Positions 6,909-57,686 of a stretch of DNA of 64,000 bases are shown here, in pieces. Source of the DNA: a virus. The translations under genes were made by a program, and so were the position numbers. Under the pieces are notes generated by a model, which saw only the letters and a list, made by a program, of their open reading frames with translations, did no database searches and was not told where the DNA came from. Position 1 is the first letter of the stretch. Each line of letters begins with the position of its first letter. The stretch covers positions 1 through 64,000 of the IMG/VR virus record IMGVR_UViG_3300023174_000138, one strand, 5' to 3'.

Positions 6909-6936
6909 TTGATTATTTATTAGAAAACACTATAAT
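6909..6936 (+). promoter_or_regulatory. early-type promoter of the glycosyltransferase gene
   Basis: TTGATT (6909-6914), a 16-bp spacer and a consensus TATAAT (6931-6936) lie 7 nt before the ATG at 6944. This is the best early promoter in the window. Its -35 box overlaps the minus-strand late box at 6914-6921 by one base. Confidence 0.65.
6914..6921 (-). promoter_or_regulatory. T4-type late promoter box (AATAAATA)
   Basis: On the minus strand AATAAATA ends 10 nt before the ATG at 6903. This is the longest box-to-start distance in the set. Confidence 0.5.
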
Positions 6937-6943
6937 TTCATGA

Positions 6944-7594
6944 ATGATAGGTGTTTTTTCGATTAGTCCATTAGAAAAGAACTGTTTATTAGAGCGTACA
7001 CTACCTAAGAACAGCAATCTAGAGCTCAATATACTTTATAATAATAAAGATATAGGGTTAAGTAAGTTTTATAATAGCGTTATAAACAACCAGGAGAATG
7101 ACAAGTATGAGGCTATAATTTGTTGTCATGATGATATTTCTCTGAGATTTGCAAACCTAACCGCAGCGGCAAAAGATTCGCTTATTAATTACGATGTAGT
7201 TGGTGTTGCAGGTGGTGTAAACCCTAAGATTGTAGAAAGAAATTTATGGCATTGGATGGTTCAACGTGATGAATATAGAGGTATTGCTGCGCACGGTGAT
7301 AAGTTGGAAAATATGTACGTAACATCGTTCGGTAATACACCTGCAAATGTGCAGGTACTTGACGGTGTCTTTTTAATGTTTAGACCGAAAAGACTGAGAG
7401 AGTCAAACGCGAGATTTGATGAGTCGTTTATATGGCATCATTATGATATAGATTTTTCCTTGACTTGTAATAAACAAGGCGTTAAACTAGGTGTATGGCC
7501 TATTCTTATCTATCATCAAAGCCCAGGATTGAGAGATATAAACGATCCTAAGTGGGTAAAGAGTAATGATTACTTTAAATTAAAATGGAAGTAG
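6944..7594 (+). CDS. GT-A fold (GT2-like) glycosyltransferase
   Basis: 216 aa. N-terminal I-G-V-F-S-I-S with a hydrophobic strand leading to C-C-H-D-D-I (about residues 64-69) resembles the acidic metal/nucleotide-sugar motif of GT2 enzymes. A-N-V-Q-V-L-D-G-V-F-L-M-F-R matches the conserved central GT2 segment, and F-D-E-S-F-I-W-H-H-Y-D-I-D-F-S looks like the acceptor-side ED motif (here Y-D-I-D). No signal peptide or membrane segment is visible, so it is cytoplasmic. The acceptor (DNA base, host glycan precursor or protein) is unknown. It has its own early promoter and overlaps the helicase gene by 10 bp. Confidence 0.78.
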   Translation: MIGVFSISPLEKNCLLERTLPKNSNLELNILYNNKDIGLSKFYNSVINNQENDKYEAIICCHDDISLRFANLTAAAKDSLINYDVVGVAGGVNPKIVERNLWHWMVQRDEYRGIAAHGDKLENMYVTSFGNTPANVQVLDGVFLMFRPKRLRESNARFDESFIWHHYDIDFSLTCNKQGVKLGVWPILIYHQSPGLRDINDPKWVKSNDYFKLKWK

Positions 7595-8922
7595 AAAAAA
7601 AGAAAAATTTAGATCTAGATTTTTACGAGACAGTTATTGCTTATAATAGTTTAACTAGCTCGAGTTATTTAGCGTCTATTATAGATTCGCTCGAGACTAG
7701 ATTTTTTAAAAATAAAGATATTAAAAATATCGTCTCAATAATAATTAAATTTTTTCAAGAGAGAGGGAATGTACCTACTCACACCGAGGTTAAAACATAT
7801 CTAGTTAATGACGAACTTAAGCAAAGCTTTAAAACCGTGGTAAATAGCTTTGTTGATGTAGATAAAAAATTTGATAAGAACGAACTAGTAGAAAATACGG
7901 AATTATTTTTAAAAGAAAAAGCTGTTTATCATGCTCTGCTAGACGCGGCTGATAAGTTAGATTCAAAGCAGCTTAATACAGCAGAACTTTTAACAAAAAT
8001 AGAGAGGGCTGTAGGTATTAATCTATCACAGCATATGGGAATAGAATTATTTGAGGACATTGATGTTTTTATTAATGATCTTCATAGCGAGGAGCCTCAT
8101 ATTAAAACAGGTTGGAAATGGCTGGATAGCCGGTTAGGTGGCGGTTTTCTAGAAAACGGAAGGGCTCTTTACGTATTTGCAGGTGAAACTAACGTAGGTA
8201 AAAGTATATTTTTAGGAAATATTGCTACTAATATAGCTCTTAACGGTAAGACTGTACTATTAATTTCTTTAGAAATGAGTGAAATGATGTATGCAAGACG
8301 GTTGTCTTCTGTTATAACTAGTATTCCTCTTAGTCATTTAAAAGCGGAGTCAGATAATCTCAAGCAATTAATAACTCAGATTGCCTCGGGTAAAAAATCT
8401 AAAATTATAATTAAGGAATTTCCTCCCTCCACATTAACCCCGTATCAATTAAAGGCTTTTATAAAGAAATTAATTCAAAAAGGCATTAAACCGGATGCTG
8501 TTGTTTTAGACTATTTAAACTTATTACACAGCCCTATCGGGAACAATAGTTATGAAAGAGTGTTACATGCTGCTCAACAGACCCGTGCGTTAAGCTATGA
8601 ACTCAACTGCCCCATAATTTCCGCAACACAGCTAAATAGATCTGGCTACAACGTTGACAACCCCGGGTTAGAGACAATATCAGAAAGTATTGGCTTGGCC
8701 ACTACTGCGGATGCTATTATATCTATTTGGCAAAAAGACGAGGATAAAGAACTTGGCACAATTAATATAGGAATGACAAAGAATAGATTTGGCCCTAATT
8801 TCGGTAGTATTGCTTTAAAGATTGATTATAATACATTACAGATCACTGAAGACGACACAATTAATGAAAGTGAAGAGGCTAGAGAATTCACAAAGACATT
8901 ATCGGTATTAAGCGGGCCGTGA
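7585..8922 (+). CDS. 41: replicative DnaB-like helicase (T4 gp41-like)
   Basis: 445 aa hexameric 5'-3' helicase. The N-terminal about 150 residues form a helical DnaB-N-like region. The RecA core has T-G-W-K-W-L-D, Walker A GETNVGKS (about 200-207), I-S-L-E-M-S-E and Walker B V-V-L-D-Y-L-N-L-L (about 307), then S-A-T-Q-L-N-R-S-G and an arginine-finger region T-K-N-R-F-G. The gene overlaps the glycosyltransferase end by 10 bp, so it is translated from the same early transcript. In T4 the helicase forms the primosome with gp61, whose gene is at 13.96 kb here. Confidence 0.95.
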   Translation: MEVEKKKNLDLDFYETVIAYNSLTSSSYLASIIDSLETRFFKNKDIKNIVSIIIKFFQERGNVPTHTEVKTYLVNDELKQSFKTVVNSFVDVDKKFDKNELVENTELFLKEKAVYHALLDAADKLDSKQLNTAELLTKIERAVGINLSQHMGIELFEDIDVFINDLHSEEPHIKTGWKWLDSRLGGGFLENGRALYVFAGETNVGKSIFLGNIATNIALNGKTVLLISLEMSEMMYARRLSSVITSIPLSHLKAESDNLKQLITQIASGKKSKIIIKEFPPSTLTPYQLKAFIKKLIQKGIKPDAVVLDYLNLLHSPIGNNSYERVLHAAQQTRALSYELNCPIISATQLNRSGYNVDNPGLETISESIGLATTADAIISIWQKDEDKELGTINIGMTKNRFGPNFGSIALKIDYNTLQITEDDTINESEEAREFTKTLSVLSGP

Positions 8923-8967
8923 TTTTTAGTTTACTGATCATAAATTCATACAGCCTTAAAGGTTTAT

Positions 8968-9234
8968 ATGAATTTCAACAATATTCAACACGAAGAGGCA
9001 GATCATCTTTTTCGTTCGTATTGTAGTTTTGTTTGCATTGCATACAACAAGAAGTATAATCTAGCCAATATATTGCTTCTGTTTCTACAGAATAAAAGTT
9101 TGAAATCTCTATTTAAATCGTTGCTTGATGTTGAAAGTGATGTACTAGCAGTTAGAATGTTTTTAGAGTTTGATCCTTCACTATGTAAAAGCAAATACAT
9201 AATGAAGTATTTGAATTCTCATAAACCTAAATGA
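8968..9234 (+). CDS. small unknown protein next to the helicase gene
   Basis: 88 aa, mostly helical, with four cysteines (S-Y-C-S-F-V-C near residue 20 and S-L-C-K near 73). I recognise no family. A weak purine-rich AAAGG lies upstream and its last codons overlap the next ATG (ATGA). The place between gp41 and gp32 would suit a helicase-loading or replisome accessory role, but nothing in the sequence proves it. Confidence 0.6.
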   Translation: MNFNNIQHEEADHLFRSYCSFVCIAYNKKYNLANILLLFLQNKSLKSLFKSLLDVESDVLAVRMFLEFDPSLCKSKYIMKYLNSHKPK

Positions 9235-9875: not shown

Positions 9876-9899
9876 TTCTTATTTTTTTGATAGTATTAT
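9872..9899 (+). promoter_or_regulatory. early-type promoter of gene 32
   Basis: TTGATT (9872-9877), a 16-bp spacer and TATTAT (9894-9899) stand 6 nt before the ATG at 9906. The box starts over the stop codon of the preceding gene. No ribosome-binding sequence separates the -10 box and the start. Confidence 0.6.
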
Positions 9900-9905
9900 A
9901 TAACT

Positions 9906-11188: not shown

Positions 11189-11194
11189 AATAAT

Positions 11195-13470: not shown

Positions 13471-13741
13471 GCACACGCCAGCCCCGCGCGGTATTTACGC
13501 AATAGACAGGGGCGACTACGTGGGAGAATTTTTTGTATACGTGAAAACAATGGACACAGGTGAGCATTGTTTTTTAGGTTTACCCAAAATGGAGAAAAGA
13601 TTAGTACCAGCAGAGTCTTTTAATTCAGGCATTAAAAATAAAATTATGGTTTTTGTACAAAAGTTACCAAAGCCAATTCATAAAATATGTTGTCAGCAAT
13701 ACGATACTAACATTGATAAACGTGTTAAGCGTAATAAATAG
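13430..13741 (+). CDS. conserved small hypothetical protein, start uncertain
   Basis: Up to 103 aa, overlapping the SDR gene end by 41 bp. The recognisable domain begins at about residue 20 (R-G-I-Y-A-I-D-R-G-D-Y-V-G-E-F-F-V-Y-V) and runs to I-C-C-Q-Q-Y. I recall relatives in T4-like phages with no known role. Only TTG codons (13430, 13451) are available as standard starts before the domain; no ATG is in frame. The initiating codon may be TTG or an unusual ATT. Confidence 0.6.
   Translation: MKEIFRHLHHCFNKHTPAPRGIYAIDRGDYVGEFFVYVKTMDTGEHCFLGLPKMEKRLVPAESFNSGIKNKIMVFVQKLPKPIHKICCQQYDTNIDKRVKRNK
13733..13740 (+). promoter_or_regulatory. T4-type late promoter box (AATAAATA)
   Basis: AATAAATA overlaps the stop of the preceding gene and ends 5 nt before the ATG at 13746, the spacing most often seen for late boxes in this window. 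Confidence 0.5.
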
Positions 13742-13745
13742 TTAT

Positions 13746-13931: not shown

Positions 13932-13942
13932 TTGTTAGCTAG

Positions 13943-13977: not shown

Positions 13978-14987
13978 ACTATATTGTTTCTAAATTCTAT
14001 CAATATGCGGGATACCCTAAATATAATAGGCTTTCTAAATGTTATAGTGGTGGCTGCCCTACATGTAGAGAAGGGGCGTCGTGGGGTAAGAAGCGCCGGC
14101 TGTATTACGTAACAAAGAAAAATTTAATATTTTGTCATAATTGCGGTCTCAGTGATAGACCTGCTAAATGGATTCAAAAGGTTGCTAATCTTACATATGG
14201 TGAGGTGTTAAAAGAAAACAGCCAATTTCAATCAAGGGTTATAGATATTACGGAGACACCTATTCAGGAGGCGCCTGCCAAACAAATACAACCAGATCTT
14301 CCAACAGACCCCATAAACTTATTTGATAAAAATCAATGTGAATTCTACAAGGATAATCCTGTTGTCAAGGAGGCTCTAGCGTTAATTAAGCATAGAAAGC
14401 TAGACACAGCTGTTAATAAGCCTGCTGCACTATATCTCACCCTGACAGATAGAATACATAAAGATAGATTAGTTATACCGTTTTACGATACTACAGGTAA
14501 GATAGTTCATTACCAAACGCGTACGATAATTGAAAATAAAAAATACCCTAAGTATCTTTCAAAGTTAAATAGTGAAAAGAGTTTATTTGGTATTAATCAA
14601 ACTTTAGAAAAAATATCGTACTTGTTCGTAACGGAAGGGCCTATTGATGCTTTTTTTATTGAGAACGGTATTGCAGTCGCCGGTATTAATGAGGGTAAAG
14701 GGTCGTTCTTTACACACAAGCAACAAGAGCAACTCAATGCATTCCCTCTACACGAAATTATATGGGTACTAGATAATCAGCGGATTGATTCTGCAAGTAA
14801 AAAGAAGACTATTGCTTTAGCTAAGGCAGGTCAAAAAGTTTTTATATGGCCAGAAAAACTTAAAATGTACAAAGACCTTAATGAAATGGCTATCGGTCTA
14901 AAAGTTAACAAAATTTCTACTAAATTTATTCTAGATAATACCTTTTCAGGTGTAAAGGCCAATCTGATACTTGCTAACCAATCTTAA
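13962..14987 (+). CDS. 61: DNA primase (T4 gp61-like)
   Basis: 341 aa (T4 gp61 is 342 aa). An N-terminal zinc ribbon is seen as C-P-T-C (residue about 25) with F-C-H-N-C-G. The TOPRIM part has V-T-E-G-P-I-D-A (about 225) and I-W-V-L-D-N-Q (about 266), supplying the acidic metal ligands. It makes RNA primers for the lagging strand with gp41. The start is GTG, inside the loop of a 10-bp inverted repeat, with no Shine-Dalgarno. It converges with the late gene at 14984, overlapping by 4 bp. Confidence 0.9.
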   Translation: MLLTEDYIVSKFYQYAGYPKYNRLSKCYSGGCPTCREGASWGKKRRLYYVTKKNLIFCHNCGLSDRPAKWIQKVANLTYGEVLKENSQFQSRVIDITETPIQEAPAKQIQPDLPTDPINLFDKNQCEFYKDNPVVKEALALIKHRKLDTAVNKPAALYLTLTDRIHKDRLVIPFYDTTGKIVHYQTRTIIENKKYPKYLSKLNSEKSLFGINQTLEKISYLFVTEGPIDAFFIENGIAVAGINEGKGSFFTHKQQEQLNAFPLHEIIWVLDNQRIDSASKKKTIALAKAGQKVFIWPEKLKMYKDLNEMAIGLKVNKISTKFILDNTFSGVKANLILANQS

Positions 14988-15391
14988 GAATCTTCGCCAG
15001 AAATTAAATAGCCTTTTAACGATTCATTTAATGAACTTAGCTCCATTGCAACTCTAGCTAAGCGCTTCTTTTCACTGTTTGAAATTTTTTCAAAAAGCGT
15101 ATCACAACCAGCAGCAGCAAGCTGCGATTGTACGCTGGAACTATCAACACCATTAATAAAATTAATAAACTTTTCTACTTCCTGTATCCAGCCTGCAAGT
15201 GTCTTTTTCTGAGCAGCGTTGTGCGCGCCTCTAACCTGATCAACACCTTGTGGAGGTGCGTTCGCATCTAATGCAGCGGGGTTAGTACCAGGCTCTAATT
15301 CTGAGGCCATTGCTTCGGGCTCTGTAGGTAAATCTTGCTCAGTTTTATCGGCTTCTAAAAGGTGTGTAAATCTCTTTGCAAACAAATTCAT
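14984..15391 (-). CDS. small late virion-type protein with propeptide-like N-terminus
   Basis: 135 aa, acidic, with no recognised family. It starts M-N-L-F-A-K-R-F-T-H-L-L-E-A, very like the start of the protein at 17774 and like T4 capsid-targeting peptides, with an L-L-E|A site typical of gp21-type cleavage. After an E/P/A-rich linker, a helical C-terminal domain (about 55-130) follows. The late box AATAAATA (15397-15404) ends 5 nt before the start. Packaging into the head as an internal protein is inferred. Confidence 0.7.
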   Translation of the reverse strand: MNLFAKRFTHLLEADKTEQDLPTEPEAMASELEPGTNPAALDANAPPQGVDQVRGAHNAAQKKTLAGWIQEVEKFINFINGVDSSSVQSQLAAAGCDTLFEKISNSEKKRLARVAMELSSLNESLKGYLISGEDS

Positions 15392-15396
15392 ATTAT

Positions 15397-15404
15397 TATT
15401 TATT
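15397..15404 (-). promoter_or_regulatory. T4-type late promoter box (AATAAATA)
   Basis: On the minus strand AATAAATA ends 5 nt before the ATG at 15391. It shares the 19-bp divergent gap with the start of the plus-strand gene at 15411. Confidence 0.6.
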
Positions 15405-15410: not shown

Positions 15411-15803
15411 ATGACTAGATTAAATATATATATGGTAAAAAAAGTAAGTGCGCTAAATGAGGACTCGCAAATGCTTTATAATAAATGGGTTAGAGGCATT
15501 GCTACGAGACAGCTACAACCCGAAATAATTACACTTTCTGATATAGTCAATCGTTTCCGCAATAACAACCAGGCGCCTAAAGTATTACCGTATCCACTTG
15601 ATAAGGTTATAGATTTCTTGGGCGATATCTTTGTAAAATGTGCAGATTTGCGTAGAACTCTAGCTCAAGGTGTTAGCAGTCCTTTAATTAAAGATAAAGC
15701 TGAAAAAATTAAGACTATTAGAGAATTAAATTCAGAAATACAAAAAATTCAAGAACAATTGTTTAGCTGTACAGACAAACTAAACAAATTACTTGAAAAA
15801 TAA
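15411..15803 (+). CDS. unknown helical protein
   Basis: 130 aa; an internal ATG at 15432 gives a 123-aa alternative. The last 40 residues are a likely coiled coil (K-A-E-K-I-K-T-I-R-E-L-N-S-E-I-Q-K-I). No family recognised. A possible promoter (TTGCAA at 15376 with T-rich -10) overlaps the minus-strand late promoter, but it is weak. It precedes the membrane protein gene. Confidence 0.6.
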   Translation: MTRLNIYMVKKVSALNEDSQMLYNKWVRGIATRQLQPEIITLSDIVNRFRNNNQAPKVLPYPLDKVIDFLGDIFVKCADLRRTLAQGVSSPLIKDKAEKIKTIRELNSEIQKIQEQLFSCTDKLNKLLEK

Positions 15804-17028: not shown

Positions 17029-17777
17029 TAGTACCCGCCGTAAATTTCAGTGTTATTAACAGACATATCAAATATTTGTCTGCTACTAGTTGTGTCCGTG
17101 CTTTCAGGATAACTACTTGGCCGCGGTGTATAGGTTTTATCGTCCGGTATTGACGTTGCAATTGTACCGTACTGTGCATTGTCATAGACTTGTGCGCTAC
17201 CTTTTTCTTGAGGTAAATTCGGCTCAAAAGAATTATCAAAGCGCTTAGCTTTTAATAACCATACATAGTGACCCATAAGAGGATTAATTTCCGAATTTTC
17301 CTGGTCCAATCGCTCTGTTATCTCGTACATTTTTCCATCTCTCTCACCTGGTCTTGTATTGCCATATTCTACCATCTTGAAAACATCTCCTGCTTTAGGT
17401 TCCGTATCAGGTGGATAAACAGAATAAAATGAACTTATGTGAAGATAGGCTGTACATGTTTCATCGCTCATGTAACCAAATTTGCTCAAGATTAATGCGT
17501 TTTCAGATAACTTGATCGCCATCACAACATCTCTTGGATCTTCAAATCTTGCTGTAGGTTGTTCACCGTAAACATTATCTGCAGATAACAGATTGTATGT
17601 ATTACGAAAATACTGAACTTTTTGACCGTATAAATCTAACTGCTCTCTCCAATAATTACTGTACAGTTGTCTTTCACATTCATTATTTTCTTTTTCCGTA
17701 AACCTTAAAGTGCTTGTAGTGTATTTTAATGGGTATGTTCTTATACAGTTTACACCGGTGTACTTATCGATACTCAT
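17025..17777 (-). CDS. 14: neck protein, T4 gp14-like
   Basis: 250 aa (T4 gp14 is 256 aa). The match is by pattern: E-Q-L-D-L-Y-G-Q-K-V-Q-Y-F-R-N-T-Y near the N-terminus, a beta-rich centre with I-L-S-K-F-G-Y, and P-K-A-G-D-V-F followed by a residue pair like K-M-Y-E-I-T. gp14 helps gp13 close the filled head for tail joining. It is second in a minus-strand late operon after the 127-aa gene, with an ATGA overlap at 17774-17777. The C-terminal 50 residues are T/S/P-rich and probably disordered. Homology is likely but not certain. Confidence 0.65.
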   Translation of the reverse strand: MSIDKYTGVNCIRTYPLKYTTSTLRFTEKENNECERQLYSNYWREQLDLYGQKVQYFRNTYNLLSADNVYGEQPTARFEDPRDVVMAIKLSENALILSKFGYMSDETCTAYLHISSFYSVYPPDTEPKAGDVFKMVEYGNTRPGERDGKMYEITERLDQENSEINPLMGHYVWLLKAKRFDNSFEPNLPQEKGSAQVYDNAQYGTIATSIPDDKTYTPRPSSYPESTDTTSSRQIFDMSVNNTEIYGGYY

Positions 17778-18157
17778 TTTTGTAAAATATATCCTCTCAA
17801 ATTTGGATCAAACTTTAACAAGATACCTGTATTGCCTAAGCTCTTTGGTGTGTTTGGATCTAGTCTTGAAATACCAAATTGTTGAGATAGTTTCTGTACT
17901 TCACTTGGGGTTAATGCTTTTCTACCCGAGTTGGCTATTTTTAAATCTTGCAACGCTTGAATAGCCTTTGGATCAACCCTGTGCATGTCAGGCACTGTTT
18001 GCGCGTGCTTCCGAAAACCTGGATCTTTTATTATTTTGCGATGCCTTTCTGTAGGTTTGAAAAAATTAGGACCTATATTTGTTGACAAAGTACCTTGATT
18101 CCATGTAGCTACTTCACTGAGCAATTGTTTATTGAAATATTTGGCAAAAAGACTCAC
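17774..18157 (-). CDS. small late virion-type protein with propeptide-like N-terminus
   Basis: 127 aa, basic. It begins M-S-L-F-A-K-Y-F-N-K-Q-L-L-S-E-V, close to the start of the 135-aa protein at 14984. L-S-E|V could be a prohead protease site. The middle includes T-P-S-E-V-Q-K-L-S-Q-Q-F-G-I, a helix-turn-helix-like stretch of no proven meaning. GTG start at 18157, 4 nt after a TATAAATA box, with no Shine-Dalgarno. It leads a two-gene late operon with the gp14-like gene. Confidence 0.7.
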   Translation of the reverse strand: MSLFAKYFNKQLLSEVATWNQGTLSTNIGPNFFKPTERHRKIIKDPGFRKHAQTVPDMHRVDPKAIQALQDLKIANSGRKALTPSEVQKLSQQFGISRLDPNTPKSLGNTGILLKFDPNLRGYILQK

Positions 18158-18161: not shown

Positions 18162-18169
18162 TATTTATA
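18162..18169 (-). promoter_or_regulatory. T4-type late promoter box (TATAAATA)
   Basis: Perfect T4 late consensus on the minus strand, ending 4 nt before GTG 18157. It lies directly downstream of the terminator at 18178-18195 for transcripts coming from the acidic-protein gene. Confidence 0.75.
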
Positions 18170-18224: not shown

Positions 18225-18821
18225 TTATTTAAAGAAATCGCCAATTTTGTAACCAGTGGCGTTAACTTTATTATTCTTACTCGTTAGTGAGTGGCCCTTG
18301 CTATCAGGAAGGGCGGAAAGCTTACCATCGTTTACGGCCTTGATATCACCGGAAGCTTTGCCGCCTTTAGCATGACCGAGCTTACCAGCAACCTTATTGT
18401 TCTTGCCTTGTAGAGCTTGACCCTTACTGTCAGGGAGCTGTTCAAGTTGAGTAGCTTCACCGGCTACTTCTTCTTGATCTTCATCTTTTTCTTCTTCTTT
18501 TTCGTCTTTTTTAGCTTTGTGCTGCTCATCTTCTTCTGCAGCAACAGGGGCTTGCTCGTCTTCAGGCTTTTCTTCTGTTTCACCGCCAAGATCTTCTTCA
18601 CCACCGTGATCTTCTTCACCACCACCTAGAACGTCGCCGAGCATATCGTGTAATTTTTGAGCAACATCGCGAGGAAGTGTCAAGGTGATTTCATCGCCCT
18701 CACCACCCATATCTTCTGGCTTATCAGCCTCAGCACCTTCCGGGCCGGCTTGAATGCCAAGATCAAGGGCATCATCCTTCATTACATCTTCATAAAGTTT
18801 ATCAAATATCGATTTGCTCAT
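18225..18821 (-). CDS. nested in-frame product of the acidic late protein (alternative start)
   Basis: A perfect TATAAATA (18827-18834, minus strand) ends exactly 5 nt before the in-frame ATG of Met115, giving 198 aa. The product begins M-S-K-S-I-F-D-K-L-Y-E-D, which fits the propeptide-like starts of the other minus-strand virion genes (L-Y-E|D). Either this is the main form and the upstream part belongs to an older or fused protein, or both forms are made. Confidence 0.6.
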   Translation of the reverse strand: MSKSIFDKLYEDVMKDDALDLGIQAGPEGAEADKPEDMGGEGDEITLTLPRDVAQKLHDMLGDVLGGGEEDHGGEEDLGGETEEKPEDEQAPVAAEEDEQHKAKKDEKEEEKDEDQEEVAGEATQLEQLPDSKGQALQGKNNKVAGKLGHAKGGKASGDIKAVNDGKLSALPDSKGHSLTSKNNKVNATGYKIGDFFK

Positions 18822-19163
18822 AATATTATTTATATTCGCTGGCTCCTTTTTTTCAAGGGCTGTAGAAAATTTTTGTGGCTCAAAATGATTATTTTTTTCT
18901 GCATTTTTAGGATCAACTATATTCTTGCTAAAACCTTCTGCGGCTTCTGGGCCAGTATTCTTAAGAGCGAAAGCGTTTTTATCTGTGCCCTTTGCCATTA
19001 TCTTTTTAGCATCAATTTTTTTATCTTTTGCCAATGGAAAAGTAGCTAATGTCTTTTTTGTCTTTTCTTCTACTACTTCTGTACTAGTATTATTTTTCGG
19101 AGCAACATGCTCCATGGCTGCGTAAACCAACCCGATATCTTTAATACTAGTAACTCTTGTCAT
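18225..19163 (-). CDS. highly acidic late protein, possible prohead core or internal protein
   Basis: 312 aa. The N-terminal about 110 residues are lysine/alanine-rich (K-K-I-D-A-K-K-I-M-A-K-G). From residue about 150 to 250 the chain is extremely acidic, glycine- and glutamate-rich. Near the C-terminus L-P-D-S-K-G-x-x-L-x-x-K-N-N-K-V occurs twice. The composition suggests a scaffold or internal head protein. It starts 6 nt after a perfect TATAAATA (19170-19177). A second TATAAATA lies inside the gene in front of Met115, which could start a separate 198-aa product. A strong terminator follows at 18171-18199. Confidence 0.75.
   Translation of the reverse strand: MTRVTSIKDIGLVYAAMEHVAPKNNTSTEVVEEKTKKTLATFPLAKDKKIDAKKIMAKGTDKNAFALKNTGPEAAEGFSKNIVDPKNAEKNNHFEPQKFSTALEKKEPANINNIMSKSIFDKLYEDVMKDDALDLGIQAGPEGAEADKPEDMGGEGDEITLTLPRDVAQKLHDMLGDVLGGGEEDHGGEEDLGGETEEKPEDEQAPVAAEEDEQHKAKKDEKEEEKDEDQEEVAGEATQLEQLPDSKGQALQGKNNKVAGKLGHAKGGKASGDIKAVNDGKLSALPDSKGHSLTSKNNKVNATGYKIGDFFK
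18827..18834 (-). promoter_or_regulatory. internal T4-type late promoter box (TATAAATA)
   Basis: Perfect consensus inside the coding sequence, 5 nt before the internal ATG at 18821. In a coding region this exact box-and-start spacing is unlikely to be chance. Confidence 0.65.
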
Positions 19164-19169: not shown

Positions 19170-19177
19170 TATTTATA
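19170..19177 (-). promoter_or_regulatory. T4-type late promoter box (TATAAATA)
   Basis: Perfect consensus ending 6 nt before the ATG at 19163. It is back to back with the plus-strand box for the terminase gene, only 5 bp away. Confidence 0.75.
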
Positions 19178-19182: not shown

Positions 19183-19190
19183 GATAAATA
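19183..19190 (+). promoter_or_regulatory. T4-type late promoter box (GATAAATA) of the terminase gene
   Basis: GATAAATA ends 5 nt before the ATG at 19196. Confidence 0.6.
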
Positions 19191-19195: not shown

Positions 19196-20911
19196 ATGAC
19201 GGATAAAGAAAAATATTATCTAGGCAACGAACGCTTGCCCACCACAGATACCAAGTTCGAATACACATCTGAGATGATAAGCGAGATTAAAAAATGTAAG
19301 AAAAACCTATTACATTTTGCTGAGAATTACTTCTTTATCATTAACTTAGATAGAGGTAAGGAAAAAATTAAATTATATCCTTGTCAAAAAAGAGTACTCA
19401 GGAACTTAAGAGATAATCGTTTTGTCATACTACTCTCTTCTAGACAGAGCGGTAAAACTACACAAATGACAATATATTGTCTGTGGAATGCATGCTTTAA
19501 TGATGATCAGAGAATTCTTATTGTTGCAAATAAAGAGCAAACAGCGAAAAATATTTTCAAACGGGTAAGACTAGCCTATGAGATGTTACCTAATTTTTTA
19601 AAGCCTGGTGTAGTCGAATACGGTCAGACAAGCATGACACTTACAAACGGCAGTAGTATAGGTATCAGTACAACTAGCAGCGACGCGGGTAGAGGTGATA
19701 GCTGTAATTGTCTTGTGTTGGATGAATTGGCTTTTATTGACAATCATATTGTTGATAAATTCTGGGAATCAGTATATCCAATTATTAGTAGTTCTAAAAA
19801 AAGTAAAATTTTTATTGCAAGTACCCCTAACGGTACAGATAATCTTTTCTACAGACTCTATAAAGGCGCTGAAGAGGGCGATAATAACTGGCGAGCAGAA
19901 AGAATCGATTGGTGGGAAATCCCCGGAAGAGATGAAAAATGGAAACACGATACAATTAAAACTCTTGGTAGCGCGGAAACATTTTCGCAAGAATTTGGAA
20001 ATGAATTTCTTCATGGTGGCGAAAGTAGTATTAATGAATTTCTATATAATTCCTCTTTAAGAGATTGCAGAGAGCCAGAATTTGTTTTTGATGATGGAAA
20101 ATATTTAATGTGGGAGGAGCCACGTGAAGAAAGAATTTATATAGCGGGTGTTGATGTAAGCGAGGGTGTGAACGAGGCGGCTAGCGTTGTACAAATTTTA
20201 GATGTTACTGATTTATCTAGTATAGAGCAGGTTGCGGTTTACCATACTCGAAATACACCGCCATTTCAATTTACTGCAAAACTTTTAGAGATTTTAACAC
20301 AATGGGGGCGGCCACCTGTTTGTATAGAAAGAAATAGTTGCGGTGCGCAAGTGGTAGAACAACTCAAATTTACTCATGGGTATGAAAATATAGTATCGTG
20401 GGGCGCTAAAGCAGGTGATAAAACTGATTTTAAAAGAGTTGGAATTTTATCACACACAAATACAAAGTACAGAGGCATTACTAACATGAGATATTGGGTG
20501 AACGAATTAAAAGTATTAAAGTTTAGAGATATTAATACTCTTAAGGAATTTAAAACTTTTATAAGATATCCTAATAATACGTGGGGTGCACGCCCCGGTG
20601 CTGATACCTGGGATGATAGAGTCATGGCCTTAGTATGGGCTTTAATTATTCTTGAAAATGAGCTTTGTAACAGATATTTTGATGTTATTAAGCTTGATGA
20701 TTGTGATAGACCACAAATTATTAAACCGTTAGACTATGGTATAAGAGGTGTCGTGAGTCCACTCAGCTTATACATGAACGAAAAAAATATTGGGGCTGAA
20801 ACCGCGCTGCCCACTATTTTCGAAGGCGGGAGTGAAGAAAAAGATGCAGAAATGGAAGAGTTAAAAAGACAAGGCTGGTACTTACCGGGACAGTCATTTT
20901 TTGATAAATAA
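19196..20911 (+). CDS. 17: large terminase subunit (T4 gp17-like)
   Basis: 571 aa packaging motor and headful nuclease (T4 gp17 is 610 aa). The ATPase domain has the Walker A-like S-R-Q-S-G-K-T-T (about residues 82-89), Walker B C-L-V-L-D-E-L-A-F (about 171-179) and coupling motif A-S-T-P-N-G. The C-terminal RNase H-like nuclease has V-D-V-S-E-G (about 317), E-R-N-S-C-G and D-D-R-V-M-A-L acidic positions. The ATG at 19196, 5 nt after a late box, is preferred to a TTG at 19157 that lies inside the promoter. The small subunit gene is not adjacent but about 13 kb away on the other strand. Confidence 0.95.
   Translation: MTDKEKYYLGNERLPTTDTKFEYTSEMISEIKKCKKNLLHFAENYFFIINLDRGKEKIKLYPCQKRVLRNLRDNRFVILLSSRQSGKTTQMTIYCLWNACFNDDQRILIVANKEQTAKNIFKRVRLAYEMLPNFLKPGVVEYGQTSMTLTNGSSIGISTTSSDAGRGDSCNCLVLDELAFIDNHIVDKFWESVYPIISSSKKSKIFIASTPNGTDNLFYRLYKGAEEGDNNWRAERIDWWEIPGRDEKWKHDTIKTLGSAETFSQEFGNEFLHGGESSINEFLYNSSLRDCREPEFVFDDGKYLMWEEPREERIYIAGVDVSEGVNEAASVVQILDVTDLSSIEQVAVYHTRNTPPFQFTAKLLEILTQWGRPPVCIERNSCGAQVVEQLKFTHGYENIVSWGAKAGDKTDFKRVGILSHTNTKYRGITNMRYWVNELKVLKFRDINTLKEFKTFIRYPNNTWGARPGADTWDDRVMALVWALIILENELCNRYFDVIKLDDCDRPQIIKPLDYGIRGVVSPLSLYMNEKNIGAETALPTIFEGGSEEKDAEMEELKRQGWYLPGQSFFDK
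20903..20910 (+). promoter_or_regulatory. T4-type late promoter box (GATAAATA)
   Basis: Overlaps the end of the terminase gene and ends 6 nt before the ATG at 20917. Confidence 0.5.
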
Positions 20912-21559: not shown

Positions 21560-21567
21560 TATAAATA
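21560..21567 (+). promoter_or_regulatory. T4-type late promoter box (TATAAATA) upstream of the sheath gene
   Basis: Perfect consensus. It ends 7 nt before the ATG of an 11-codon reading frame (21575) and 44 nt before the sheath ATG. CATAAATA (21551-21558) lies just upstream. Confidence 0.75.
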
Positions 21568-21574: not shown

Positions 21575-21610
21575 ATGAGTAACCGTCTTTCTACTGGAGT
21601 AACAAAATAA
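21575..21610 (+). CDS. 11-residue leader reading frame before the sheath gene
   Basis: M-S-N-R-L-S-T-G-V-T-K then TAA, ending one base before the sheath ATG at 21612. It occupies the place where other late genes start (7 nt after the late box). Its codons for S-T-G-V include GGAG (21596-21599), which may serve as the sheath Shine-Dalgarno sequence. It could be a translated leader coupled to the sheath, or simply untranslated leader. Confidence 0.35.
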   Translation: MSNRLSTGVTK

Positions 21611-24067: not shown

Positions 24068-24075
24068 AATAAATA
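24068..24075 (+). promoter_or_regulatory. T4-type late promoter box (AATAAATA) of the tail tube gene
   Basis: Ends 5 nt before the ATG at 24081. Confidence 0.6.
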
Positions 24076-24644: not shown

Positions 24645-24652
24645 CATAAATA
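24645..24652 (+). promoter_or_regulatory. T4-type late promoter box (CATAAATA)
   Basis: Ends 6 nt before the ATG at 24659. Confidence 0.5.
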
Positions 24653-26452: not shown

Positions 26453-26460
26453 TATAAATA
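26453..26460 (+). promoter_or_regulatory. T4-type late promoter box (TATAAATA)
   Basis: Perfect consensus ending 7 nt before the ATG at 26468. Confidence 0.75.
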
Positions 26461-32707: not shown

Positions 32708-32715
32708 TATTTATC
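32708..32715 (-). promoter_or_regulatory. T4-type late promoter box (GATAAATA)
   Basis: On the minus strand it ends 4 nt before the ATG at 32703. Three bases away is the -35 box of the divergent dUTPase promoter. Confidence 0.55.
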
Positions 32716-34754: not shown

Positions 34755-34762
34755 TATTTATA
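34755..34762 (-). promoter_or_regulatory. T4-type late promoter box (TATAAATA)
   Basis: Perfect consensus on the minus strand, 8 nt before the ATG at 34746. It is divergent from the gene 25 promoter. Confidence 0.7.
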
Positions 34763-34805: not shown

Positions 34806-34813
34806 AATAAATA
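34806..34813 (+). promoter_or_regulatory. T4-type late promoter box (AATAAATA) of gene 25
   Basis: Ends 4 nt before the ATG at 34818. Confidence 0.55.
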
Positions 34814-43600: not shown

Positions 43601-45240
43601 AAAAAGGCAATAAATGTTTTGAAGATTTTGGAATTAATACCACGGTTAGTTTTATTGCGAGCGCGGACTATTTTAGTTATTTTGAAAAATGGGAAGGCGG
43701 GGTGTGCAACGGTATTAATACAGATTGCATTTTTCCTGTGACTACAGCGGTCAATTTAACTGCATATTTTGGAAAAATACCAACAGTTGACTTATTGTTA
43801 ATAACACCAGCAGGTTCAGTTTTCTCGCAAGACGGTAGAATAAGAGTAACTGCTGGAAATGGCTCTACAGGTCCTGCAACAGCTAATATAGCCTACCCTA
43901 TTAATACTATTATTACACTCTCTGCAGTATATCCTATCTCAGGCTGGGCTATGTATGGCTATGATGGCGGAAGATGCAAAGGAGTGCAGGGATTAAGATG
44001 TACATTCGGAATTAACACTGATATGACAATTGAAGCTCGCTATGTCAGGTTTTACGAGTATCCTCTTAGAATAAATTTAACATCTTACATTGCAGCGCAG
44101 TCAGCAAAAGGCGATAGTGTCGCTATTGGTGTCGATAATGTAGATGACGGTGTTCGGTCAGGGAATGAGTTTTTCTATAATTATCTATGTAACAATGCTT
44201 CATGTACCTACATACTCACGGGGACAAACACCGAAAGGTATAAGAATCAAATTGCAACATTATGCGCAAGACCTTCACCTGGTAGAAAATTAAAATACTG
44301 GATTGGTGAATTAGAATGTAATCAATCTGAATTTACAAACGTGATACTTTCTGAAACTTCTGCAGACATTTTAAATACAGGCTACATATGTAAATTAGAG
44401 ATGAACACTTATAAAGAGACCACCGCAGTATTTGACAAAGGGTATTATACACTAACTGTGGTTACTACTGGTGACGGAATAGGCAGTGTGTTCAGTGAAT
44501 CTCCTGACCCTTATTTTAAGAGAGAAATCGAGGGTGATCAGCAACCGGAAGATGACGACGGGTCGTTTGATCCTGCATCCGTAACAAATAATATTGTAAA
44601 GTTTGCGGTATTAAGCGGTACAACCCTGACTGTGAAAGCATCAGCCTTTAGAGGTAATTCGTTTATATGGTTGTCTAGTTATAATTGCACGACTTTAAGT
44701 GATGCAATCACTTCGTGCCAAATGACATTAAATCAAGATAGAACTATCTTAATAAAGCTGTCTGCTTTTGCTTACTGGGATGTTGTTATTATTAATAAAG
44801 CGACTGGCGGTGTAAGAGTTTCAGCATTTCCCGCTGGTAGATACAACACACTTATTGCCTGTCCGAGCAGCCCAAGTGGTGGGTGTCGCGCAAGCTATAA
44901 ATCAGGCAGAATAGTAAGCCTTGTTGCAGAAAATTATCAGCCTGCTAATCCCACAGCGCCTGTCGGGTCGGTAATCCCTCTAACAGGTGTACAATATTTT
45001 CAAAGTAATAAATTGCTGGGCGGCGGTGGTCTAAAATATCAATACACTGCTGGTCCTGGAATTTACCTTTCGGTTATGGATCGACCAGAACCGGAGGGCG
45101 AGATTTTCTCGATTATTGACGGAAGTATAATCCTTACCTCAGGCGGTATACCTTATGTTGCCGGACCAGGTATAATAGTAGAAGCAAAAGCATTTCTACA
45201 AGTAACAGACACCGCCTACGTAACTGCTTGGCCGCTGTAA
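40672..45240 (+). CDS. giant baseplate/fibre protein with InlB-like repeats
   Basis: 1522 aa. The N-terminal about 150 residues (P-F-T-F-L-Q-W-L-V-Q-S, I-C-L-Y-Y-S-I-A-R-E-K-L-K-Y) are helical and look like a baseplate-docking domain. The middle is beta-rich. From about 957 to 1430 there are four divergent InlB/Listeria-Bacteroides-type repeats (G-x-G-x-V, a W/Y core, then C-x(4-6)-C and A-x-F/Y-endings), each with cysteine pairs. The C-terminus (about 1457-1522) is a module with two A-G-P-G-I motifs shared with two other proteins in this cluster. It overlaps the previous gene by 8 bp. It probably projects from the baseplate as a receptor-binding or stalk protein. Confidence 0.75.
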   Translation: MINSSIVNNNFFARDSNEPFTFLQWLVQSTSSNSDVNIQFANYKKYILRWTEKKSLSKKESSKTLQSAYVQVLREITLTYSTEEEKRFITNADLTNPSDIEVILPFFINRLKQICLYYSIAREKLKYTSIEYSQRGTSVSIEKAVKDLIFSTARLDLSFDNLPTFFPPISAIAQDLSIYIEEVYDTTSNYFNQTAPEKNTNKTALQNISSTNIIFDTLYIDFKQAIIDAINYYPFYLDSIMGLFSVNIALSGTELNYLKNRDFIDYINTGLSQDLKINLLKKLAPKFLANDFYFLSTGNSVANTVSGVLFSVTPLSGAPTLNLLNRNSPTVATVPSVDNLYTAYEIGKFFLPQHQGILVYATPQKKFYINKEKLQPNTVYTFPDPETIGNVVYNNSTEKEAITPLTYIVDVTWNKTSRSNQYKFGDVFATPYNSFYYGYQSREQDLNQSASGISRVQDNIDFWDGQESNIWKNEDTWPGIDMLDSYPYEKRQDSLLINTGTPVCWSSDIFNNDFCLIKEIDSLKPASKELTSDGVMPGQSTILSEQTNYLNEKSIYEKHTEPGVLYFRDNIKGIIQSGYEALSSVILRYHPSIVSDIRSKVYYFAIYGNTFVLETSGHVIVDSFEYNYDRLAIESITPQGLIFNKFNNSSKLQKFVGEWYSEKNNLLYLCFLRIRNESASSNYKVVYPVIHAATLSPLQSRIIYPNKETDLVRIYSLSGTSLQPPQVNLVNIDGASFEFLNKTNIFNITYFSKNLNSMPFVVNEQIFKNEPYCTTYNPQFFQPFYFIVDNNYYTPSLPYFVKYVGASTGLIGSHLINSGRFNTLAFNLSNMNYAYCDGIKPLQLNSLASYIVQFDWQTYSEITMFIGCSSYIVRKIDDYLLWNAYTSKAGYLFKDTTISSYQEKISSNSLTIPITSYITRLTDDASLVRFDIVSNHPTFKTPVCDNPDDIYRRITITKAGPGKGQVLSDPFCIDCSEKGNKCFEDFGINTTVSFIASADYFSYFEKWEGGVCNGINTDCIFPVTTAVNLTAYFGKIPTVDLLLITPAGSVFSQDGRIRVTAGNGSTGPATANIAYPINTIITLSAVYPISGWAMYGYDGGRCKGVQGLRCTFGINTDMTIEARYVRFYEYPLRINLTSYIAAQSAKGDSVAIGVDNVDDGVRSGNEFFYNYLCNNASCTYILTGTNTERYKNQIATLCARPSPGRKLKYWIGELECNQSEFTNVILSETSADILNTGYICKLEMNTYKETTAVFDKGYYTLTVVTTGDGIGSVFSESPDPYFKREIEGDQQPEDDDGSFDPASVTNNIVKFAVLSGTTLTVKASAFRGNSFIWLSSYNCTTLSDAITSCQMTLNQDRTILIKLSAFAYWDVVIINKATGGVRVSAFPAGRYNTLIACPSSPSGGCRASYKSGRIVSLVAENYQPANPTAPVGSVIPLTGVQYFQSNKLLGGGGLKYQYTAGPGIYLSVMDRPEPEGEIFSIIDGSIILTSGGIPYVAGPGIIVEAKAFLQVTDTAYVTAWPL

Positions 45241-45248
45241 ATATACAT

Positions 45249-47216: not shown

Positions 47217-48220
47217 TGAATACTAGTTTTTTAGTAACATCAGCAAGAATTACAGTCCCTACAAACGCTGTAGCGCTGTCAACATATGACTATTGCTCGT
47301 GGTTAGATCATCACATTTTTAAAGACACGAGCTTAACACCTACAGGGTACAATTTTACATATCCGTTAACAGCGTATGGTGGTTATTTTTTCCCTAGAAC
47401 AATTACATTTACATCCGAAATAAGTGGCGGGCCTTTTTATGATATTTGTTACCAAGATTTTTGTTATGAAAGTTATTCCTTATCTCCAATTAACATATAC
47501 TGTGTGTCTAATGTTACCTTTATCTTGAGTACATTAGATGAATCTACTGGAAAAATTGTTAAGATAGTCTATGATTTTGGCGATAACTCTGATCTTTTAA
47601 TTAAAAATTATGATTATCTAGACCTAAGTAGCTTGCCAATAAAGTTACAACCAGTTACACATACATACTACCCGACAGATTCTTTTGTATCTGCATATAC
47701 TCCACGTATATCGACAGTTAATGAAGATGGTTGTATTTCAACAATAACGCTTACACTCTGCAGCTTTAAGTGTGGTATAATTGATCTATACGAAAACATG
47801 ACATTATTAGATGCAGCTCAGTCAAAAACTGTCCGGTCTATAGTCTTGACTTTAGAAGATAAAAAACAGCGACAAGTGTATACGAATATGCTAGATCTTG
47901 ATGCACCGCTACCGCAGCTGTCGAGCATTACTAATGCCTCTATTGCTCAAGCTCTGGAGCAAGCCACAACAATAGTAAGAGCTTCTACGGCTAGACTACA
48001 GTTCCTTAATCCTATTAAAGCTGATATCTTTAATTATGAATATACTGAAGGACCTGGTATTAACATGACCCCGGATACACTGGTATTACCACCTGGTAGC
48101 TTTATCTCATCGTCTTCTGCATATGGTATGACCGTTATCGATGGTAGCGGTGCACCATATATTGTTGGAGACGGTCTAATAGTAACCCCTGGGTTTCTTA
48201 GAACCCCATTACCGGAGTAA
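47216..48220 (+). CDS. baseplate/fibre protein with PKD-like domain and shared C-terminal module
   Basis: 334 aa. The N-terminal half is beta-rich with several cysteines. V-Y-D-F-G-D-N-S-D and H-T-Y-Y-P-T resemble a PKD domain (about 115-165). After a helical linker, the C-terminal 60 residues (Y-T-E-G-P-G-I-N-M ... Y-I-V-G-D-G-L-I-V) are the same module as in the 1522-aa and 661-aa proteins. The start is ATG 47216, overlapping the previous stop by one base. Length is like T4 gp8, but homology is not shown. Confidence 0.7.
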   Translation: MNTSFLVTSARITVPTNAVALSTYDYCSWLDHHIFKDTSLTPTGYNFTYPLTAYGGYFFPRTITFTSEISGGPFYDICYQDFCYESYSLSPINIYCVSNVTFILSTLDESTGKIVKIVYDFGDNSDLLIKNYDYLDLSSLPIKLQPVTHTYYPTDSFVSAYTPRISTVNEDGCISTITLTLCSFKCGIIDLYENMTLLDAAQSKTVRSIVLTLEDKKQRQVYTNMLDLDAPLPQLSSITNASIAQALEQATTIVRASTARLQFLNPIKADIFNYEYTEGPGINMTPDTLVLPPGSFISSSSAYGMTVIDGSGAPYIVGDGLIVTPGFLRTPLPE

Positions 48221-48227
48221 ATAATTT

Positions 48228-53431: not shown

Positions 53432-53468
53432 AACACATTGTTTTTGAATAACTATATATAGGAGTATT

Positions 53469-54224: not shown

Positions 54225-56206
54225 GCAATTTTTTGTATCATAGCAAATACCACAGGACCAATCATCACACTCTACCTACACCTGGTTTACCAGATAGTGC
54301 AATAGATCCCATAGCGTCAGAAGCTGAACCATTTGTAGGGCCGTTTTATACATTTTTTATCGCCGATCAAGGTACAGTTCCATTAAACGTAAAATATATT
54401 TTAACTTATAACACCGATTACGTTACAACGTTTTCTAATCTTTCCGTAGCTACATTAGATAGTACATATTTAACATTAACAGCAAACGCCGTCACAAATA
54501 GCTATGATTGGTACCGGACTAGAACAAACATTCTCACATTGAGTACAGGCTATAGTCTGTACCCTTATCTTACCGGTACTGTTATATCATTAAGTGGTAG
54601 TTGGAATCTCGGATTTAGCAGTTATACGACACTCTGTGCTAATAGTGGATTTTACGAATCTACTCGCACAACAGTTTTTATTAATAGCGCGGGCTGGCCA
54701 TTTATTGATACAACATTAAGATTAAACATACCGCAGCAAAATACAAAAAGTAAAAATTTTTCCTTACAGACAATTATTCCTAGTGATGCTGATATTTATT
54801 GGGATATAAACCTGCAACAGGTTGGCTTCGTACCATTGACACGGAATTCATTATTAAAAAATATTAATCCTTCTGATAAAAAGCGTGGTGGAGAATATTA
54901 TCTTATAATACAGCAAGACGGCTATGGTGAAAAAAAGTTAGATTTTGAAAGTGATTTTTCTCTACTAGCTTCTGAAATTGCACCGCAAATAAGTGAACAG
55001 CTAGTAGAGTTTTCAACTAATGAAATATGGACATCGGTTTACTATGGCAGCGGTTCGTGGATTGCTGTGCCATATAATTCTAATAGGGCTTCACGTTCAG
55101 ATGATGGCGGTGTTTCATGGTACGGTCTACCCTTGCCGGGTGTAAAAAATTGGAGATCAATTGTTTACGGTGCAAGTGCCTGGGTTACTATAGCTGACTC
55201 TTTTACAGGTGCAGCTGTTTCATATGATTATGGTACAACCTGGGAATATAAAGATTTACTCGCAGCAAGAAAATGGACTAGTATAGGTTATAATAATAAC
55301 ACTTTTATAGCTGTAGCCTCAGCATCTAATAAAGGTGTTAGATCTGTAGACAGGGGTGTCACATGGGTTGAATTTGCTTTACCTTTTACGGCAGATTGGG
55401 CTTCAGTAAAATATGGCGACGGTAAGTGGATATCGGTTGCTGGAGGTGGCGTTGAAGGTAGTAACCCTACTAATCAGGGTGCAATTTCTTTAGATGACGG
55501 TCAAACGTGGGATGCATTTAATCTACCCTCTACTAGATTGTGGTCTGATATTGCATATGGTGAAGACTATTGGGTAGCAGTAGCTAAAAACTCTACATTT
55601 ATTGCATTGTCTTCACCGCTTGAGGGTAATGGTCAATGGTTTGACTATTACATGCCTGGTAGCCCAGGTCAAGGATTTTCCTCTGTTACATTCGGTAATG
55701 AAACTTTTGTTGCAGCAAGTTTAAACCCGACGCGGGCTATATATACATCTGTTGATGGTAAAATTTGGAAATATAAAAATACTGTTTCTAAGATAATTTA
55801 TAATGTAAATTATGGCGGTACGACATACGGAGGCAACTTTATGATGGTCGGTAAGGACGGAGATGGTACAGTCACGTACAGTAATTATAAGATTGCTGCT
55901 TTTGACGCACCAGATTTATCTAGTACTATTAGTGTATTAACTGCAGCATATGGTGTCACTGTTATAAAATTTGTATGTGACGGGTATAGATACTACGGTA
56001 TTCCAAGTGTCTATTACGTTTCCCGAGGATCAGTTTGGACATATTTCGCCGGACCAGGTATTACACTTATTCCGAATCCGACTGATTTATTAAATGGCGA
56101 GGGTATGCTACCAGATGGAGGATTAACAGTTGCAGGTGCTGTAGTCGTAGATGAAGGTTTTACAGGCATTGAAGGTATTTCAGTTCTATCGGGTATGCCT
56201 GTATAA
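54221..56206 (+). CDS. tail fibre with BNR-like propeller and shared C-terminal module
   Basis: 661 aa. The N-terminal about 250 residues are a paralogue of the preceding protein. An insert at about 266-537 has six or so sialidase-like (BNR/Asp-box type) repeats such as W-R-S-I-V-Y-G-A-S-A-W-V-T-I and S-L-D-D-G-Q-T-W. After the propeller the paralogous C-terminal strand region returns (V-I-K-F-V-C-D-G-Y-R-Y-Y-G). The last 60 residues (Y-F-A-G-P-G-I-T-L) are the module shared with proteins ending at 45240 and 48220. Host-surface binding is inferred. Confidence 0.75.
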   Translation: MSNFLYHSKYHRTNHHTLPTPGLPDSAIDPIASEAEPFVGPFYTFFIADQGTVPLNVKYILTYNTDYVTTFSNLSVATLDSTYLTLTANAVTNSYDWYRTRTNILTLSTGYSLYPYLTGTVISLSGSWNLGFSSYTTLCANSGFYESTRTTVFINSAGWPFIDTTLRLNIPQQNTKSKNFSLQTIIPSDADIYWDINLQQVGFVPLTRNSLLKNINPSDKKRGGEYYLIIQQDGYGEKKLDFESDFSLLASEIAPQISEQLVEFSTNEIWTSVYYGSGSWIAVPYNSNRASRSDDGGVSWYGLPLPGVKNWRSIVYGASAWVTIADSFTGAAVSYDYGTTWEYKDLLAARKWTSIGYNNNTFIAVASASNKGVRSVDRGVTWVEFALPFTADWASVKYGDGKWISVAGGGVEGSNPTNQGAISLDDGQTWDAFNLPSTRLWSDIAYGEDYWVAVAKNSTFIALSSPLEGNGQWFDYYMPGSPGQGFSSVTFGNETFVAASLNPTRAIYTSVDGKIWKYKNTVSKIIYNVNYGGTTYGGNFMMVGKDGDGTVTYSNYKIAAFDAPDLSSTISVLTAAYGVTVIKFVCDGYRYYGIPSVYYVSRGSVWTYFAGPGITLIPNPTDLLNGEGMLPDGGLTVAGAVVVDEGFTGIEGISVLSGMPV

Positions 56207-56212
56207 TAAATA
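56205..56212 (+). promoter_or_regulatory. T4-type late promoter box (AATAAATA) of gene 13
   Basis: Overlaps the stop of the fibre gene and ends 4 nt before the ATG at 56217. Confidence 0.55.
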
Positions 56213-56216
56213 ATAT

Positions 56217-57203: not shown

Positions 57204-57207
57204 CAAT

Positions 57208-57663
57208 TTGAAACTTACTATTAAAAATAATAAATTTGTGCAAGGTATTTTTAAACCAATGCACATGGAAAAATATAAGGGCCATGATTTACCTAGGTAC
57301 CTAAGTAGTTGGGAGTTGAAATTGTTTCGTTGGTGTGATACAAACCCTAATGTTCTAGAATGGGGTAGTGAAAGTATAGTCATACCTTATGAAAGCCCTA
57401 TTGACGGAAAGGTTCACAGGTATATTGTCGATGCAGTTGTAAAACTCAAGACATCGGAGGGGTTGAAAAAATATTTGATTGAGGTTAAGCCATATAAACA
57501 GACTATAGAGCCGCAAAATACCCCGGGCAAACAGAAGAAAACACTAGTTTACGAGCAATTAACGTTTCTGCAAAATAAAGCTAAATGGCAAGCCGCTAAA
57601 CACTTTGCTCAAAAACATGGCTTTGAATTCACAATTCTTACTGAAAAAGAGCTTAGAAAATAG
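57208..57663 (+). CDS. 4: head completion protein (T4 gp4-like nuclease fold)
   Basis: 151 aa (T4 gp4 is 150 aa). S-S-W-E-L-K-L-F-R-W-C-D, N-V-L-E-W-G-S-E, and H-R-Y-I-V-D-A-V with K-Y-L-I-E-V-K-P-Y match the restriction-nuclease-like core (D and E-x-K positions present). It closes with L-T-E-K-E-L. The start is TTG at 57208, 4 bases after the gene 13 stop; the next ATG would remove conserved N-terminal residues. It prepares packaged DNA ends for the neck in T4. Confidence 0.92.
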   Translation: MKLTIKNNKFVQGIFKPMHMEKYKGHDLPRYLSSWELKLFRWCDTNPNVLEWGSESIVIPYESPIDGKVHRYIVDAVVKLKTSEGLKKYLIEVKPYKQTIEPQNTPGKQKKTLVYEQLTFLQNKAKWQAAKHFAQKHGFEFTILTEKELRK

Positions 57664-57673
57664 TAAAATAAAC

Positions 57674-57681
57674 AATAAATA
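57674..57681 (+). promoter_or_regulatory. T4-type late promoter box (AATAAATA) of gene 21
   Basis: Ends 5 nt before the ATG at 57687. Confidence 0.6.
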
Positions 57682-57686
57682 ATATT

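Follow-up and report, generated by a model that had tools for sequence, protein, structure and literature searches.

Late promoter boxes beside start codons

Whether the late mRNAs of a T4-type phage can begin on the start codon itself is the question raised by a 64,000-nt stretch of viral DNA (IMG/VR record IMGVR_UViG_3300023174_000138, positions 1 to 64,000; hereafter the window), in which octamers of the T4 late promoter type lie a few nucleotides upstream of genes. This spacing, which many relatives share, is unlike that of T4 and of every other T4-type phage compared. Judging from it, the majority of promoter-proximal messages would have the start codon at their 5' end and lack a ribosome-binding leader. 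The window makes up 64 kb of a 78,143-bp contig from an uncultivated T4-type water phage. The phage is a member of the T4 superfamily, and we recognized gp43 (DNA polymerase), UvsX, gp41 helicase, gp32, primase and gp44 clamp loader, as well as the virion and packaging genes gp17, tail tube, sheath, gp25, gp6, gp13, gp21 and gp23. Its gp17 is at most ~37% identical to those of the best-listed phages of the annotated collection.

Gene starts were taken from a simple in-house caller blind to the boxes, except that the start of gp17 was set to 19196 and one open reading frame (ORF) was added. The number of bases between a box and the start codon is termed the gap. A previous reading of the window from its letters alone (the sequence-only reading) had listed 17 NATAAATA boxes followed by a start codon after 4–8 nt, once after 10, and proposed that they give rise to leaderless late mRNAs. 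All 17 were found at their positions, for the minus strand quoted there by the low coordinate. Boxes at 18827 and 21560 are treated further below; the others, together with variant boxes, were as follows:

6914–6921, minus strand: late box AATAAATA, gap 10 to the ATG of gene 6055-6903
13733–13740, plus strand: late box AATAAATA, gap 5 to ATG 13746 (61-aa gene), kept in most relatives
15397–15404, minus strand: late box AATAAATA, gap 5 to the ATG of gene 14984-15391; near box in ~40 orthologues
15419–15426, plus strand: variant box ATTAAATA, gap 5 to ATG 15432
18162–18169, minus strand: late box TATAAATA, gap 4 to the GTG of gene 17774-18157; gap 4–5 in 14/14 orthologues
19170–19177, minus strand: late box TATAAATA, gap 6 to the ATG of gene 18225-19163; it and the gp17 box stand back to back
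19183–19190, plus strand: late box GATAAATA, gap 5 to ATG 19196 of gp17 (terminase large subunit)
20903–20910, plus strand: late box GATAAATA, gap 6 to ATG 20917 (tail-tube-like protein), overlapping the gp17 3' end
24068–24075, plus strand: late box AATAAATA, gap 5 to ATG 24081 of gp19
24645–24652, plus strand: late box CATAAATA, gap 6 to ATG 24659
26453–26460, plus strand: late box TATAAATA, gap 7 to ATG 26468
32708–32715, minus strand: late box GATAAATA, gap 4 to the ATG of gene 32224-32703
34755–34762, minus strand: late box TATAAATA, gap 8 to the ATG of gene 34123-34746
34806–34813, plus strand: late box AATAAATA, gap 4 to ATG 34818 of gp25
45236–45243, plus strand: variant box TGTAAATA, gap 5 to ATG 45249
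48216–48223, plus strand: variant box AGTAAATA, gap 4 to ATG 48228
56205–56212, plus strand: late box AATAAATA, gap 4 to ATG 56217 of gp13
57674–57681, plus strand: late box AATAAATA, gap 5 to ATG 57687 of gp21 (prohead protease)

An octamer before virion genes, as expected of T4-type late promoters, was seen at gp17, the tube gene, gp19, gp13, gp21 and gp25. The gaps claimed for gp17, gp19, gp21 and gp25 were confirmed, as were the occurrence of boxes on both strands, the small-gene start at 13746 and the predominance of gap 5. Both variants previously noted before 45249 and 48228 are present, but boxes of the TGTAAATA type are not enriched in the clade (3/21 at gap 4–8), which makes the box at 45236 a weak case. 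Between 19163 and 19196, divergent start codons stand 32 bp apart, and the two back-to-back boxes are separated by 5 bp, so that two polymerases could hardly bind at the same time.

The sequence-only reading had suggested a genome-wide count against a composition-matched null, and had held that boxes spread evenly relative to starts would speak against its proposal. When the count was run, NATAAATA occurred at gap 4–8 in 15 of 68 genes (dinucleotide-shuffle mean 0.66, maximum 4 in 2000), far above the shuffle, and the boxes were clearly not evenly spread. With the looser NNTAAATA, 23 genes were found (shuffle mean 1.45, maximum 6). ATAAATA sites had an ATG at gap 4–8 in 41% of cases; among 7-mers of the same composition, TAAATAA, which overlaps the box, came next with 28.6%, and the others reached at most 15%. 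Boxes without a start lie mostly within coding sequence, frequently antisense.

Conservation of the spacing in relatives

In IMG/VR, relatives of gp17 number in the hundreds, at least 80 of them at 56–96% identity among the matches listed, and a further scan of the database found 563 relatives. Counts were pooled over seven large contigs of this clade after deduplication. In these, gaps of 4, 5, 6, 7 and 8 nt from NNTAAATA to the start were observed 47, 104, 46, 18 and 14 times, respectively, compared with ~2.3 per position at 13–51 nt. This gives 229 boxes at gaps 4–8, again with the mode at 5, where ~11 would be expected. Dozens of relatives keep the spacing at their orthologous genes. For several minus-strand genes, and for gp17, gp18, gp19 and the tube gene, a box adjoins the start in many orthologues, down to ~30–50% protein identity and most commonly at gap 5. 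By these comparisons, the rule holds as a common feature of a large environmental clade whose gp17 proteins are 56–96% identical. At 199 of 228 near-box starts an in-frame stop lies upstream with no earlier alternative start, and the start of these genes can therefore not lie further upstream.

A compact or AT-rich genome could in principle place boxes beside starts by chance, and the genome is indeed 64% A+T with short intergenic gaps. However, the shuffle and permuted-motif controls contradict this, and T4, whose G+C is likewise 36%, has no box at 4–8 nt. Moreover, where the intergenic room was at least 40 nt, 60 of 99 NATAAATA boxes nonetheless stood at gap 4–8, and compaction is therefore not the cause. 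On these three controls (shuffle, permuted motif, intergenic room) we rejected compaction and composition as an extremely improbable explanation.

Shine-Dalgarno (SD) sequences are scarce in the clade. An SD was also present at only 13 of the 228 near-box genes, and SD-like sequences precede 11–23% of clade genes, compared with 68% of T4 genes; shuffling alone gave 11% (G006). The occurrence of near boxes depended on operon position: of tandem starts with 6–14 nt gaps 65% had one, of divergent starts 37%, and of coupled starts only 19 of 364 (5%). Such a distribution would be expected of a promoter and not of a general translation signal.

Comparison with T4 and the predicted transcription start

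The first T of the octamer is numbered −13 in T4, so that the box spans −13 to −6 (PMC2988020). With its last base at −6, the modal gap of 5 lets +1 coincide with the initial base of the start codon. In T4 itself the distance from box to gene is mostly 24–28 nt and an SD usually lies in between, whereas in the clade the distance is 4–8 nt without an SD. When comparator phages were run through the same gene caller, boxes at gap 4–8 made up 0/12 in T4, 0/15 in S-PM2, 1/12 in Pelagibacter phage Mosig, 0/10 in DSL-LC03, 0/4 in Cr30, 0/2 in phiM9 and 1/4 in RM378, while C48C1 was without such boxes. Over these eight phages, 2 of 59 NNTAAATA boxes were at 4–8 nt, and most lay 15–46 nt upstream. In RM378, called Far-T4 in the literature, the trait was not seen in the 50 kb examined. 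In Mosig (L092), which otherwise has leaders, a lone GATAAATA box stands at gap 5 before gene 3 (locus position 14965, minus strand). The late promoter of cyanophage S-PM2 is likewise NATAAATA, with the same degenerate first base and the same kinds of late genes (PMC2984593), but its gaps are 19–40 nt in the region examined, with none at 4–8.

In other respects the clade resembles T4: the box is TATAAATA, a −35 element is mostly lacking, and homologues of gp55 and gp45 are present. The gp45 homologue (phrog_223) is encoded on the contig of the window, and a gp55 homologue (phrog_234) was found in 12 of 14 relatives. The boxes would thus be T4-type late promoters, read by the host RNA polymerase with the phage sigma factor gp55 and aided by the gp45 clamp, and so placed that transcription would start on the start codon or 0–3 nt before it. 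The resulting late mRNAs would be leaderless and translated from a 5'-terminal AUG or GUG without an SD. Genes further down in operons would depend on coupling or, in a minority, on an SD, and a few genes would keep SD leaders, namely gp23 and, behind a leaderless 11-codon mini-ORF, gp18. Box positions, their spacing and conservation, the scarcity of SDs and the gp55 and gp45 homologues were observed directly. From T4 geometry and the comparative spacing we infer the position of the transcription start and the leaderless mode of translation, and that gp55 reads the boxes is likewise inferred.

Alternatively, the boxes could be real late promoters at which the RNA start is shifted relative to T4, or read-through mRNAs could dominate, with leaderless translation playing a minor part. 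Many near-box genes do stand in tandem arrays open to read-through. On the other hand, divergent genes without an upstream neighbour on the same strand have the same gaps, SDs are absent even where space allows, and a start further downstream would delete the start codon. We consider this alternative quite unlikely.

Early promoters in the same register

Among genes with neither a late box nor an SD, TATAAT was enriched at gap 6. Over all genes, exact TATAAT occurred 41 times at this gap, compared with ~2.6 per other position. At TATAAT starts, TTG[AC] was most often found 16 nt upstream (TTGA-N16-TATAAT). A TTG[AC] −35 element was present at 35 of 62 TATAAT starts (spacers 15–17), compared with 24 of 228 near-box starts (spacers 13–15). 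About 90% of late-box starts are thus without a −35 element, and its occurrence at only about one in ten is what would be expected of gp55 promoters. With a sigma70-type −10 hexamer at gap 6, the last T falls at −7, in the base register of the late octamer, and in both promoter classes the expected transcription start therefore coincides with the start codon. Leaderlessness is accordingly predicted for early genes as well, which the sequence-only reading had not noticed, and a leaderless start would be the general mode of the clade for promoter-proximal genes. Two examples in the window are:

5372–5377, plus strand: sigma70-type −10 TATAAT, gap 6 to ATG 5384, predicted leaderless early start
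6931–6936, plus strand: sigma70-type −10 TATAAT, gap 7 to ATG 6944, predicted near-leaderless early start

These promoters also bear on the idea that the AT-rich octamer is not a promoter but a translation-initiation element of an SD-independent host, with mRNAs that start upstream and carry leaders. The low SD use of the clade does imply some SD-independent initiation. Yet the octamer is rare at coupled genes and common at divergent and short-gap tandem starts, it is identical to the late promoter of T4 and cyanophages, and sigma70-type genes have TATAAT with a matched −35 element in its place, in the same register. At gp18, furthermore, the box precedes a mini-ORF and the gp18 start is 44 nt off. 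We rejected the translation-signal reading on the operon position of the near boxes and regard it as very unlikely.

Leaderless initiation from T4-type late promoters is thus the best explanation, to which we assign a probability of about 0.86. T4 geometry, orthologue spacing, SD scarcity and the sigma70 register all support the probable leaderless late mRNAs of the sequence-only reading, still as a prediction. Several observations weigh against it. Gaps of 7–10 would mean leaders of 2–5 nt, and at gap 4 a start placed as in T4 would fall on the second base of the codon, unless initiation were displaced by 1. GTG or TTG is the start codon at ~10–16% of near-late starts, and leaderless GUG works poorly in Escherichia coli. 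Some late boxes have a −35-like element, the 78-kb contig of the window, itself a fragment, yielded no gp55, and the gene starts rest on our own simple caller. The late boxes with a −35-like element may be mixed early/late promoters, such as have been proposed in S-PM2 and RB49 (PMC2984593). TTGATA lies 14 nt upstream of the box at 13733, which is possibly such a dual promoter.

The gp18 mini-ORF and the gp23 leader

The sequence-only reading had counted the box at 21560 among those before start codons, implying a tie to gp18. This did not hold, as the box precedes a mini-ORF, and gp18 starts at 21612 in another frame. The features concerned are:

21560–21567, plus strand: late box TATAAATA, gap 7 to ATG 21575, with which the mini-ORF before gp18 begins
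21575–21610, plus strand: predicted leaderless 11-codon mini-ORF (MSNRLSTGVTK), containing the GGAG SD of gp18
59634–59709, plus strand: gp23 leader with AAGGAG SD and no near box

The mini-ORF stop lies 1 nt before the gp18 ATG. In the closest relatives, the box likewise stands at gap 7–8 to an 11-codon mini-ORF, which holds the gp18 SD and usually ends one base before the gp18 ATG, and frame and length are kept in ~30 loci (15 distinct 36-nt sequences) though the peptide varies; one further locus has a 10-codon version. In L013 there is no mini-ORF and the box directly precedes gp18, while a few distant relatives have an SD-bearing leader between the box and gp18. From this arrangement, gp18 of the window is not leaderless; the box-proximal mini-ORF is predicted to be so. 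By its leader sequence gp23 is an exception, keeping a long SD leader. The gp23 leader contains, besides its SD, stretches of inverted repeats that are conserved in relatives. As gp23 gives the most abundant late mRNA, structure in its leader may serve regulation or stability.

Putative nested in-frame starts

Two boxes were found inside genes:

18827–18834, minus strand: late box TATAAATA within gene 18225-19163; in-frame ATG 18821 follows at gap 5
58601–58608, plus strand: late box within gene 58358-58756; in-frame ATG 58613 follows at gap 4

For the box at 18827, the position and gap claimed earlier were correct, but the start is an in-frame internal ATG and not a gene start. ATG 18821 is residue 115 of gene 18225-19163, and the predicted nested product has 198 aa. 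The in-frame box and ATG are kept in 56 of 58 dereplicated orthologues, with gap 5 in 47, 8 in 8 and 11 in 1. The Ile-Asn pair under the box shows no variation, in a part of the protein that is otherwise poorly conserved, and the Ile is encoded by ATA in every orthologue that has the box, while ATA makes up 44% of Ile codons. The codon bias and the invariant pair point to selection on the DNA, and to a putative internal promoter for a product of ~170–210 aa. Gene 18225-19163 encodes an acidic protein of unassigned role and adjoins gp17, and the nested product would be its C-terminal part. A precedent is gene 17 of T4, which is annotated in the T4 record with internal transcription and in-frame translation. 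The arrangement at 58601 is conserved only in the close relative G002.

Known leaderless systems, hosts and implications

Leaderless mRNAs are known from other systems. In the lytic Thermus phage phiYS40, middle and late mRNAs have been shown experimentally to be mostly leaderless (reviewed in PMC3594737), whereas leaderlessness in the present clade is predicted only; phiYS40 is not described there as a T4-type phage with gp55-type promoters. In the TA-led genes of Deinococcus-Thermus and Actinobacteria, the −10 element is so close to the start codon that the mRNA is leaderless (PMC3160421, PMC12340547). Clade starts likewise have a −10 element ~10–12 bp before the start codon and no SD; TA-led genes, however, are cellular and use the housekeeping sigma factor, while here the arrangement is found in phages, at both sigma70-type and gp55-type promoters. 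We found no report of the trait in T4-type phages in the open literature, subscription papers being covered incompletely. With the Far-T4 phages (Roux et al. 2015, PMC4360716) the clade shares an aquatic origin, lack of cultivation and T4-type core genes. That study contains no promoter analysis and reports no transcription-regulation core genes, whereas gp55 and gp45 were found here.

T4 late transcription is a textbook system in which the position of the promoter relative to the gene has hitherto been taken for granted. A whole aquatic clade in which predicted transcription start and start codon coincide would imply a different mode of translation late in infection, and its hosts either must be good at translating leaderless mRNA or must be made so. 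For annotation, the box spacing would fix start codons and predict nested genes, and genes such as gp18 offer a natural comparison of SD-led and leaderless versions. A wider interpretation, which we put forward tentatively and would not yet favour, is that this globally common clade has switched nearly all of its promoter-proximal genes, early as well as late, to leaderless mRNAs, in hosts that favour such translation or whose ribosomes or initiation factors the phage remodels, with internal leaderless promoters producing nested proteins.

Scans of genome contigs with gp17 gave no relative that could indicate a host. A Bacteroidota host has been proposed for one marine Far-T4-like genome (PMC7198788), but the promoter type gives no support for it here, as the Bacteroidota-type −7 element (TAnnTTTG) was not enriched near starts. 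No WhiB, PsbA or peptide deformylase was found in the relatives searched. None of the relatives' phage tRNA-Met genes has the three G-C pairs adjoining the anticodon loop that characterize initiators, and these tRNAs are therefore not tied to leaderless initiation. An S21-like protein scored above the family cut-off in only two of the relatives searched, with the ribosomal protein S21-like genes at G006:C1:39344-39463 and G008:C1:24336-24452. In the ribosome, S21 is positioned close to the anti-SD region, and a role of the S21-like protein in initiation is conceivable in these two relatives. In the relative G013, a tmRNA gene was identified (L129:12277-12660).

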